From the NCBI GenBank assembly GCA_025363635.1, contig JANYDL010000091.1, forward strand, positions 1 through 52,036: a stretch of 52,036 nt of DNA. Direction: 5' to 3'. The notes beneath the pieces are model-generated. The model was not told the origin of the DNA and searched no databases. It saw only the letters and a list, made by a program, of their open reading frames with translations. The translations under genes were made by a program, and so were the position numbers. The stretch comes from Actinomycetes bacterium (lineage in GTDB: Bacteria > Actinomycetota > Actinomycetes > Nanopelagicales > Nanopelagicaceae). Each line of letters opens with the position of its first letter. The first letter of the stretch is position 1. Of the stretch, positions 33,461-40,317 are shown piece by piece.

Positions 33461-35134
33461 ATGAGCACAATGAAACCTCGTTCTGGCCTCGTAACCGATG
33501 GAATGGAGCGTGCGCCTGCTCGCGGAATGTTGCGAGCTGTCGGGATGGGTGATGAAGATTGGGTCAAACCGCAGATCGGCATTGTCTCGTCTTGGAACGA
33601 AATCACCCCGTGCAACCTCTCCCTCGACCGGCTCGCCAAAGCTTCACGTCAAGGGGTTATTGATGCAGGTGGATTCCCGATGCAATTTGGAACAATCTCT
33701 GTCTCGGATGGAATTTCCATGGGACACGAAGGAATGCACTTTTCATTGGTCTCCCGTGAAGTCATTGCTGACTCGGTGGAAACAGTGATGCAGGCAGAGC
33801 GCCTCGATGGAATGGTGACATTTGCCGGTTGCGATAAGTCGCTTCCGGGAATGATGATGGCAGCGGCTCGGATAGACGTTGCCAGTGTTTTTGTTTACGC
33901 AGGCTCAACTTTGCCGGGTCAAGTTGATGGCAAAGATGTCACGATCATTGATGCTTTTGAAGCAGTTGGCGCGTGTGCACGAGGAATTATTTCTCAAGAG
34001 CAATTGGACAAAATTGAACGAGCCATCTGCCCGGGCGAAGGTGCATGTGGCGGCATGTATACAGCGAACACAATGGCTACCGTCGGAGAAGCGATCGGGT
34101 TATCACTTCCTGGCTCTGCTGCGCCACCTGCCATCGATCGTCGCCGTGACGCGTATTCGGTGCAATCGGGTGCCGCTGTAGTTGAATTAATTAGGCAGGG
34201 AATCACGACGAGACAAATTTTGACGAAGCCAGCATTTGAAAATGCGATTACTGCAGTCATGGCCTTAGGCGGATCTACCAACGCTGTTTTGCACCTATTA
34301 GCTATTGCCCATGAAGCACAAGTTGACTTAACACTTGACGATTTTCATCGCATCGGATCAAAAGTTCCATTGCTTGGAGATTTGAAACCATTCGGTCGCT
34401 TTGTGATGAGCGATATGGATAAGGTTGGCGGGGTTCCTGTCGTTCTCAAAGCCCTTCTTGATGCAGGTTTGCTCCACGGCGATGTTTTAACAGTAACTGG
34501 AAAAACAATGGCCGAGAATTTGAAGGATATTGCTCCGCCAGATCCAGATGGTGAAATTTTGCGAGCAACAAGTAACCCACTTTCTTTGGGCGGCGGAATT
34601 ACGATTCTTGGAGGATCGCTTGCACCCGATGGTGCTGTGACAAAGACCGCGGGTGTCGGCGTGGATTTATTTGAAGGACCAGCACGTGTTTTTGAAAGAG
34701 AACAACAAGCCATGGATGCTTTGGAAAACGGAACCATACAAGCGGGAGATGTCGTTGTCATTCGCTATGAAGGCCCTAAGGGCGGCCCAGGTATGCGAGA
34801 AATGTTAATGATTACGGGGGCAATCAAAGGTGCGGGGTTGGGTAAATCTGTTTTATTGCTCACGGATGGAAGATTTTCCGGTGGAACTACTGGTTTGTGC
34901 GTTGGACATGTTGCGCCGGAGGCATCCTTGGGCGGACCTATTGCGTTCGTAAGAGATGGAGACAGAATTCGAATCAACACAATTGATCGAACTTTGGATC
35001 TACTAGTAAGCCAAGCTGAATTGGCCCAGCGCCGTCGCAATTTTTCTCCGATCCCGCATAAGTACACCCGCGGCGTTCTCTCAAAGTACGCAAAGCTTGT
35101 CGGTTCGGCTAGTAAAGGTGCGGTCTGCGATTAA
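33461..35134 (+). CDS. ilvD: Dihydroxy-acid dehydratase
   Basis: This iron-sulphur enzyme dehydrates dihydroxy-acids to the 2-oxo acids of valine and isoleucine. Cysteines of the cluster lie in [22 protein letters not shown] and [14 protein letters not shown]. The C-terminal motif [16 protein letters not shown] is present. The product is 557 aa. The ATG at 33461 is favoured. A second in-frame ATG lies at 33470. The open frame continues upstream through the divergent tetR gene and should not be counted. It lies just before the attenuator that precedes ilvB. Confidence 0.95.
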
Positions 35135-35168
35135 TCAGTCCCAAATCGTGAGATGTGCATCTCATGGG

Positions 35169-35197
35169 TTGACGCACCGCGAGAAGCGTTGGACAAT
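35169..35197 (+). promoter_or_regulatory. Promoter of the ilvBNC leader
   Basis: TTGACG (35169-35174) and GACAAT (35192-35197) are separated by 17 bp. The -10 ends 6 nt before the leader-peptide ATG, so the leader mRNA is probably leaderless. This is the best-formed promoter in the amino-acid block. Confidence 0.75.
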
Positions 35198-35203
35198 AGA
35201 GCC

Positions 35204-35242
35204 ATGATTTCATCAGTGGTGATTGAAGAGCGCGCGATCTAG
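35204..35242 (+). CDS. ilvB leader peptide (attenuation)
   Basis: The short frame encodes MISSVVIEERAI. Five of 12 residues are Ile or Val, including a Val-Val-Ile run, the composition expected of a branched-chain attenuation peptide. It starts 6 nt after a good -10 and is followed by a hairpin and an intrinsic terminator before ilvB. Attenuation of ilvBNC is known in Corynebacterium. The sensing mechanism here is inferred. Confidence 0.75.
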   Translation: MISSVVIEERAI

Positions 35243-35288
35243 CATCATCCAGATCACGCGCTACCCTCAGTTCACACTGGGGGTTTTT
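35229..35288 (+). terminator. Attenuator: hairpin plus intrinsic terminator before ilvB
   Basis: The first hairpin (35229-35262) pairs AGCGCG with CGCGCT and GATCT with AGATC, with one C-A mismatch and a 10-nt loop. It overlaps the end of the leader peptide. Next, CCCTCAGT (35264-35271) pairs with ACTGGGGG (35276-35283) around TCAC and runs into five T, a Rho-independent terminator. A competing pairing is possible: CAGTGGTGA over the Val codons (35214-35222) can pair with TCACACTG (35272-35279) with one bulge. Which fold forms at which Val/Ile charging state is not resolved. Confidence 0.8.
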
Positions 35289-35301
35289 GCATTATTAGAG
35301 G

Positions 35302-35320
35302 GAATTTCTGCAAGAAATTC
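35302..35320 (+). other. Stem-loop in the ilvB 5' untranslated region
   Basis: GAATTTC and GAAATTC form a perfect 7-bp stem around TGCAA. It lies after the attenuator terminator and about 29 nt before the ilvB ATG. It could affect ilvB translation or mRNA stability. No role is established. Confidence 0.5.
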
Positions 35321-35348
35321 GAAGTGAGTAAGCGGGAGGGAGAAGGAA

Positions 35349-37100
35349 ATGAGTCGAGAGCTTGGGCCCGCAATGTCAGGTGCATCTAGCCTGGTGAAAT
35401 CCCTCGAAGCCGCAGGAGTTGAAGTGATGTTTGGCATTCCTGGCGGGGCAATACTTCCTGCTTACGATCCGATTTTCGATTCATCCATTCGCCACATACT
35501 TGTTCGCCACGAGCAAGGAGCAGGGCATGCTGCGACCGGATATGCCCAAGCTACAGGTCGTACTGGTGTCTGCATTGCCACGTCAGGACCAGGCGCTACG
35601 AACTTAGTCACTCCACTTGCGGACGCGGCGATGGATTCAGTTCCGCTCGTTGCAATCACGGGCCAAGTGCCTTCCGCCGCAATCGGGACAGATGCATTTC
35701 AAGAAGCGGATATTCGTGGTGTAACCATGCCGATTACAAAACACAATTACCTCATCACCGATCCTGCGGATATTCCACGTGCAATTGCCGAGGCTTTTCA
35801 CATTGCTAGTACAGGTCGGCCGGGACCGGTTCTCGTAGACATTGCCAAAGACGCTTTGCAGGCCATGACTAACTTTACGTATCCATCCAAGATTTCACTT
35901 GCTGGTTACAAACCACAGGTTGAACCCGAAGATCAAGCGATACGAGATGCTGCGGCATTGATAGCCCAATCAACTAAGCCAGTTCTCTTCGTTGGCGGTG
36001 GCGTCATTAAGGCGGAAGCGCATAAAGAGTTAATGCGTTTAGCAGAACTCACTGGCGCTCCGGTAGTCACCACACTTATGGCGCGTGGCGCTTTTCCTGA
36101 TAGCCACCGTCTTCATTTAGGTATGCCAGGAATGCACGGAACAGTTGCGGCAGTTACCGCCCTTCAGAAAAGTGATTTGCTCATCACCCTCGGCGCTCGC
36201 TTTGACGATCGCGTTACCGGCAAGCTCTCGTCTTTTGCCGTAAATGCAAAAGTGATCCATGCGGATATCGATCCGGCCGAAATTGGCAAGAATCGTTATG
36301 CAGATGTCGCTGTGATAGGCGATCTCAAGCACATTATGAAAGCGTTGATTCCAGCGATACAAAATGAATTTAAGAAATCACATCCTGATTTAGTCCCATG
36401 GTGGAAACAAATGGGTTCACTTCGTGCAACGTATCCAGTGGGTTACACCGCGCCAGAAAATGGTGAGATCGCGCCGCAGTACGTCATTGAACGAATCAGT
36501 GACATTTCAGGACCTGATTCAATCTATGTCGCAGGGGTGGGCCAACATCAAATGTGGGCATCGCAATTTGTTAAGTTTGAAAAACCGCGTACATGGCTCA
36601 ACTCTGGCGGCCTTGGCACGATGGGTTATGCAGTACCTGCGGCGATGGGGGCAAAAGTTGGTAAGCCCGACAAAACTGTTTGGGCCATCGACGGAGATGG
36701 TTGCTTCCAGATGACTAATCAAGAATTAGTGACGTGTGCTCTCAATAACATTCCCATCAAGATAGCGATCATCAACAATGAAAGCCTGGGAATGGTTCGT
36801 CAATGGCAGACGATGTTTTATGAAGGTCGCTATTCAAATACATCGTTGGAATCAAAGCGCGTACCAGATTTTGTGAAATTGGCCGATGCTATGGGTTGTG
36901 CTGGGCTTCGTTGCGAGCGCACGGAAGATGTTGATGCCGTCATCAAGGAAGCGATGTCGATCAATGATCAACCTGTTGTGGTTGATTTCAGAGTGTTTAA
37001 AGACGCGATGGTTTGGCCCATGGTCGCGGCAGGGACATCGAATGATGAAATTATGATCGCTCGAGGTTTGGCCCCCGACTGGGATTCACAGGAGTTGTAA
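35349..37100 (+). CDS. ilvB: Acetolactate (acetohydroxyacid) synthase large subunit
   Basis: This thiamine-diphosphate enzyme condenses pyruvate with pyruvate or 2-oxobutanoate, the first shared step of Val/Leu and Ile synthesis. The catalytic Glu is E55 in [12 protein letters not shown]. The ThDP motif GDGCF to NN lies at about residues 446-473. The FAD-binding and central domains are intact. The length of 583 aa is normal. The ATG follows a purine-rich GGGAGGGAGAAGG site. It is controlled by the upstream attenuator and coupled to ilvN through a TAATG overlap. Confidence 0.97.
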
Positions 37101-37660
37101 TGAGTAAACATACCCTCGCCGTTCTTGTCGAAAATAGCCCTGGCGTTTTGGCGCGTGTGGCATCGCTCTTTTCTAGGCGCGCCTACAACATTGATTCTCT
37201 CGCGGTCGGACCAACAGAAAATCCTGACATATCGCGGATGACGATTGTCCTGAATTTAGAAGGACACGTCCTCGATCAGGTAATGGCGCAGTTATATAAA
37301 TTGGTCAACGTCATCGCCATTTGCGAGATGCCTTTAGAGACCACGATCCAACGCGAACTGCTCTTGGTGAAAGTTGCACCTGGGGCCAAACGAAGTGAAG
37401 TTTTAACGTTGGTGAGACAATTTCAGGCGAAAATCGTTGACGAGGATGACGACGTTCTCACGATCGAATCTACCGCGGATAGTGAAATCATTGAGGGACT
37501 TCTGAGCGCTTTAACACCTTTTGGAATTAAGGAATTGGTTCAATCAGGACTCGTGGCTCTTGAGCGTGGAACGGCCGCGCTATCAGACCGTACGCTTAGC
37601 GCGCAAGGAATTTCTACCGAGCATGACATCAGCAGGACTCAAGCAGATTACCAAAACTAA
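37100..37660 (+). CDS. ilvN: Acetolactate synthase regulatory subunit
   Basis: This small subunit binds valine and adjusts the large subunit. The N-terminal ACT domain covers about residues 4-75 (LAVLVENSPGVLARVASLFSRR), and the C-terminal domain carries ELLLVKV and FGIKELVQSGLVAL. The product is 186 aa, longer than usual by a tail of about 20 residues. It overlaps ilvB by one base. Confidence 0.96.
   Translation: MSKHTLAVLVENSPGVLARVASLFSRRAYNIDSLAVGPTENPDISRMTIVLNLEGHVLDQVMAQLYKLVNVIAICEMPLETTIQRELLLVKVAPGAKRSEVLTLVRQFQAKIVDEDDDVLTIESTADSEIIEGLLSALTPFGIKELVQSGLVALERGTAALSDRTLSAQGISTEHDISRTQADYQN

Positions 37661-37685: not shown

Positions 37686-40317
<2,632 letters not shown>

Follow-up and report, generated by a model that had tools for sequence, protein, structure and literature searches.

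Predicted leaderless leader-peptide attenuator upstream of ilvBNC in freshwater Nanopelagicaceae

The DNA analysed here (the window, 52,036 nucleotides of a 1.85 Mb assembly in 104 contigs) carries ilvB, ilvN and ilvC downstream of an ORF assigned to ilvD (NCBIfam), with a gap of 214 bp (35135-35348) between the end of the ilvD ORF (35134) and the start of ilvB (35349). By IlvB, the nearest named relatives are MAGs of freshwater actinobacteria, among them Candidatus Nanopelagicales and Nanopelagicaceae, and the window most likely belongs to that lineage; the host is a free-living freshwater actinobacterium, and the ilv genes make valine, isoleucine and leucine. The features of the gap and operon are the following.

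35149..35164, no strand assigned: palindrome TGAGAT-N4-ATCTCA, candidate operator, 4 nt 5' of the -35 hexamer
35169..35174, + strand: -35 hexamer TTGACG (TTGAC in nearly all relatives)
35192..35197, + strand: -10 hexamer GACAAT, with a 17 nt spacer to the -35 hexamer
35204..35242, + strand: leader ORF MISSVVIEERAI and stop codon, 12 residues, predicted leaderless; frame conserved in relatives
35216..35224, + strand: sensing codons GTG GTG ATT (Val5 Val6 Ile7), conserved in family leaders
35229..35262, + strand: hairpin P, arms 35229-35240 and 35251-35262; covariation in 85 distinct sequences
35263..35284, + strand: terminator hairpin T, beginning directly after P; from fold, covariation and terminator search
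35284..35288, + strand: terminator T-run, five T
just 5' of ilvB, + strand: purine-rich predicted ribosome-binding region GGGAGGGAGAAGG
35349..37100, + strand: ilvB, acetolactate synthase large subunit (NCBIfam NF005860, TIGR00118)
37100..37660, + strand: ilvN, acetolactate synthase small subunit (NCBIfam TIGR00119)
37701..38732, + strand: ilvC, ketol-acid reductoisomerase (NCBIfam TIGR00465)

The original prediction, a leader-peptide attenuator in front of ilvBNC, had described a TTGACG-17-GACAAT promoter, a 12-residue frame with five Ile/Val codons 6 nt after the -10 hexamer, a strong hairpin over the end of the peptide and a terminator with five T, and each was found at its place. The promoter is the only promoter-like site in 35000-35500 (0.2 in shuffled sequences), just as T with its T-run is the only terminator-like site. 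The distance from the -10 hexamer to the leader start, 6 nt in the window, is 6 nt in 81 and 7 nt in 9 of 90 leaders, 86 of which are from the family; the promoter search spanned 4-9 nt, so this narrow result is informative, though the best-scoring start was chosen for each leader. TTGAC is found 17 or 18 nt from the -10 hexamer in nearly all of the 90 leaders, a motif resembling a Shine-Dalgarno site precedes the leader start in only four, and the length of the peptide 5' of the codon run varies widely whereas the distance from the -10 hexamer to the start does not. A leaderless transcript with its 5' end at or next to 35204 is predicted from this spacing, together with two ilvB leaders that mapping has shown to be leaderless, those of C. 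diphtheriae (PMC5784534) and S. lividans (PMC8079986, where several leaderless leader peptides are listed) and with data from C. glutamicum, in which the leader start codon lies one nucleotide from the transcript start and lacks a ribosome binding site (PMC11857589; also Morbach 2000, as cited in PMC4046766). The conserved spacing and these published leaders support the claim that the start codon lies near enough to the -10 hexamer for the message to be predicted leaderless; as a novelty, the contrast drawn with E. coli was overstated, as the same three organisms show. A genome-wide pattern for the strict promoter-ATG layout matched in two places only, and is too strict to estimate how widely leaderless initiation is used.

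The leader has Ile or Val at Ile2, Val5, Val6, Ile7 and Ile12. Five such residues in 11 are not significant alone (binomial P about 0.1); their significance comes from conservation across relatives, for in 86 of 86 family leaders the run before P closes with three codons for Val, Ile or Leu, mostly GTG GTG ATT, while the remainder of the peptide drifts and Ile2 is not conserved. A conserved run within a drifting peptide is the pattern of a ribosome-stalling device and not of a functional peptide. A Val/Ile/Leu run directly 5' of P also occurs in Streptomyces, Amycolatopsis and Cellulomonas. In one genus (g16, leaders L063-L082) the stop codon comes right after V-V-I, as in MSTTFVVVI, and P lies outside the ORF yet is kept.

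The RNA from 35204 to 35290 is predicted to fold with -33.1 kcal/mol (z = -4.3; 0 of 200 shuffles as good). P, which has one C.A mismatch between its arms (35235 x 35256), overlaps leader codons 9-13, stop codon included. A covariance model of P and T (R1), built from 23 relatives, matches 181 of 201 Nanopelagicaceae-type family genomes and 95 of the 99 good ones, nearly always once per genome. Across 85 distinct sequences both hairpins covary, with 90% of cells paired, double changes in 14 of 21 pairs, and 94 double-change cells against 35.9+-4.6 in shuffles (0 of 500), in an alignment that was fitted to the structure and hence leans towards it; all slid registers fare much worse. P carries U-A in place of a G-C pair in three species, at the cost of an Arg to Leu change in the peptide, and in 28 leaders with the stop codon at or before the base of P, where the 5' arm is non-coding, P still has 8-12 pairs; P is thus kept as RNA. 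From these alignments the P and T element is judged not to be a product of chance. Conserved Val/Ile codons and compensatory stem changes, which the original prediction proposed to look for, are both present, and its suggested search for Rfam models of ilvB leaders came back empty: Rfam 15 gave no match to a curated covariance model in the window, at gathering or E-value thresholds, nor in five ilvB-leader loci tested with E up to 1. Conservation continues past the terminator into the bases that follow the T-run (35284-35294), which read GCATTA here and GTTG or CATT in other actinobacteria. The interval between terminator and ilvB contains a perfect 7-bp inverted repeat, GAATTTC-tgcaa-GAAATTC (35302-35320), that is not evident in most relatives.

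What the leaders share, as aligned, is a geometry: the codon run, 0-6 nt, P, and then T with almost no gap. Between the end of the branched-chain amino acid (BCAA) run and P lie 2-6 nt in 85 of 86 family leaders and 0-5 nt in 33 other actinobacterial leaders, and the gap between P and T is 0 in 97 of these 119 leaders and at most 3 nt in all of them, where 0 is to be read as 0-2 because the gap comes from predicted folds that may extend T by a weak pair; the length of P varies from 23 to 57 nt. Loci 5' of ilvB in Streptomyces, Kitasatospora, Amycolatopsis, Cellulomonas, Blastococcus and Nocardia (L162-L222) have the same layout, with a leaderless-type promoter, a BCAA run rich in GTA/CTT/CTC, a GCGC-based hairpin and an abutting terminator, in a selective survey whose filter, a promoter hexamer adjoining the start, left no leader in 20 of 54 scanned loci. 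When the A site of the ribosome holds the first of the three run codons, the ribosome edge, some 13 nt further on, would reach the foot of P; at the stop codon, which lies inside P or just before it, the ribosome would cover part or most of the 5' arm of P. By these footprint positions P would report a stalled or absent ribosome.

The window has the features of the leaderless ilvB leaders of actinobacteria, namely a short ORF with an Ile/Val/Leu run directly 5' of ilvBNC and a hairpin over or next to that ORF followed by an intrinsic terminator, and the element is probably the Nanopelagicaceae version of that leader. Attenuators of this type were predicted in 2005 for Corynebacterium, Mycobacterium and Streptomyces (PMC1262725) and have been tested since. 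The prediction was right that ilvBNC attenuation is known in Corynebacterium: in C. glutamicum expression depends on Val, a leader-lacZ fusion is active, and replacement of the three Val residues by Ala abolishes the Val dependence (PMC11857589). The Corynebacterium leader (ilvB-II motif, P1 and P2) resembles that of the window in being leaderless, in its V run, in the hairpin over the leader ORF, in the terminator before ilvB and in the operon that it precedes (PMC11857589, PMC10272879), and differs in its peptide and in a proposed antiterminator that overlaps the terminator, whereas none was found here and P and T abut. M. tuberculosis ilvB1NC, likened here by its published description, has an experimentally tested 166-nt leader with a BCAA run (LVVI), a terminator before ilvB and a short terminated transcript; conversion of LVVI to AAAA abolishes induction, and in the published model a ribosome at the stop codon prevents an antiterminator (PMC13236596). 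S. lividans IlvL (MRTRILVLGKRVG) is likewise leaderless, with 13 aa, hairpins and a U-rich stretch before ilvBHC (PMC8079986), but reads ILVL with GTA/CTT codons and has a longer, branched P and another terminator sequence; a peptide identical to it occurs in two Streptomyces loci (L202, L221) with the same order of run, P and T. The E. coli trp leader is alike in that its codons sense the end product and an intrinsic terminator precedes the operon; it is not leaderless, and its overlapping antiterminator was recovered by the following test, which found none here.

In a textbook three-segment attenuator the codon segment or an extension of P would pair with an arm of T as antiterminator. The ribosome was masked codon by codon, and it was asked whether other RNA holds the 5' arm of T before the 3' arm exists. 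With E. coli trpL (sequence verified) as control, sequestration of this arm is 0.62 when the ribosome stalls at Trp, 0.01 once it has reached the stop codon and 0.06 if no ribosome is present, so that the textbook antiterminator is recovered. In the window the value is 0.21 at the stop codon, but the arm is held with 0.62-0.64 at Ile2 and 0.61 without a ribosome, through an extended P stem that draws on the V-I-E codons and that most same-genus leaders with ATTGA also show; this much speaks for a three-segment device. Against it, the arm is free with the ribosome at Val5 or Val6 (0.01-0.16), whereas stalled trpL gives 0.62, and likewise on average in the 86 family leaders (0.11) and the 33 others (0.13) when the edge of the ribosome reaches P's base; Ile2 is not conserved, and the GATTCACGAG clade and most other genera lack the extended stem. 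Wherever the ribosome is placed, the mean equilibrium probability of T exceeds 0.95. As a universal antiterminator the extended stem was rejected, since it is confined to some members of the genus and would be masked when the ribosome stalls at Val. Folding with and without masking, as proposed in the original prediction, shows the extended stem without a ribosome and the T arm free at the Val codons. Its further proposal, that the Val-Val codons pair with the terminator, is possible as part of the extended stem only when the codons are free of the ribosome, which would cover them on stalling; pairing of the codon segment with the 3' arm of T is no stronger in cognate (-4.66 kcal/mol) than in non-cognate (-4.69) or, within this family, synonymous-random (-4.59) combinations, permutation of cognate versus non-cognate gave 0.64 and 0.80, and the pairing is not conserved. 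This candidate was rejected on the cognate, permutation and synonymous-codon controls. With ribosome masking, and with the trpL control behaving as expected, an antiterminator overlapping the terminator on stalling at the sensing codons was not found; a classical overlapping antiterminator is not supported, and since it defines the trp-type three-segment attenuator, the element is not to be filed as one. We consider a three-segment mechanism unlikely.

It is less likely still that the leader senses no amino acids, T setting a fixed level of read-through while a regulator bound to the palindrome next to the -35 hexamer controls the operon. The palindrome occurs exactly once in its own genome and exactly once in each of 18 of 21 same-genus genomes, every time at the ilvB leader (reversed-pattern control, 0), and 65 of 90 leaders contain GAGA-N6-TCTC, mostly 54-56 nt before the start codon and with a few of these matches spurious; alongside the attenuator, this suggests a putative operator of an apparently dedicated, single-target regulator. 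With two mismatches allowed the list of sites was broad (92 against 42 in the control) and a regulon could not be named. Such a reading would fit the replacement of ilvB leader codons without effect in S. coelicolor, as cited in PMC1262725, but it leaves the strict V-V-I just before P, in a peptide whose other residues drift, to be explained also in other families of the class, and it runs against the sensing demonstrated in M. tuberculosis (PMC13236596) and C. glutamicum (PMC11857589). The least probable alternative is a transcript that starts further upstream, or a leader ORF that is untranslated: in nearly all of the 90 leaders TTGAC and the -10 hexamer are placed for transcription to begin on the start codon, 86 have no motif resembling a Shine-Dalgarno site, and leaderless ilvB leaders have been mapped in C. 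diphtheriae and S. lividans (PMC5784534, PMC8079986).

The reading preferred here, with a probability of about 0.75, is a ribosome-mediated transcription attenuator of ilvBNC with a leaderless, BCAA-sensing leader that responds to charged tRNA-Val and tRNA-Ile. Conservation across the family extends to its frame and codons, to the promoter spacing, and to P, T and the distance between them, and the layout matches the published actinobacterial leaders, as the original prediction of an attenuator would have it. Transcription would start at or next to the leader ATG, where a 70S ribosome would initiate without a Shine-Dalgarno site. With Val and Ile plentiful, the ribosome would reach the stop codon and cover the 5' arm of P, leaving P open, and T would form and terminate transcription at about 35288; with Val or Ile short, it would stall with the first V-V-I codon in the A site and its leading edge at the foot of P, P would form, and RNA polymerase would read through into ilvB. 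By analogy with relatives, stalling would mean expression, as in M. tuberculosis (PMC13236596) and C. glutamicum (PMC11857589), and P should then oppose T. P and T share no bases, which suggests a steric block, in which P, abutting T and not drawn into the exit channel of RNA polymerase, might keep T from closing by its position and not by pairing. This step, taken alone, is tentative and may well be wrong: the same lack of overlap and the high equilibrium probability of T at all ribosome positions count against it, and adjacent double hairpins are, according to PMC8355165, also used to locate termination sites. P is moreover predicted to fold without any ribosome, so that the model predicts expression from an untranslated leader, but in C. 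glutamicum expression fell by 80% when the leader start codon was removed (PMC11857589). That actinobacterial ilvB leaders are, class-wide, attenuators without an overlapping antiterminator, in which a hairpin that stands one ribosome edge 3' of the sensing codons and abuts the terminator blocks termination by position alone (steric antitermination), is similarly a speculative proposal, with the odds against it.

The leaderless ilvB leader as such is already known from Corynebacterium and Streptomyces; reports of such regulation in streamlined freshwater actinobacteria were not found in the literature searched. The attenuator proposed here would extend leaderless leader-peptide attenuation to these small-genome organisms, and the class-wide alignment calls into question the pairing model commonly assumed for ilv attenuators of actinobacteria. 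Such attenuators are of importance in strains that produce amino acids and in M. tuberculosis. The abutting layout of P and T, common to the other actinobacterial loci examined, is the part worth testing.
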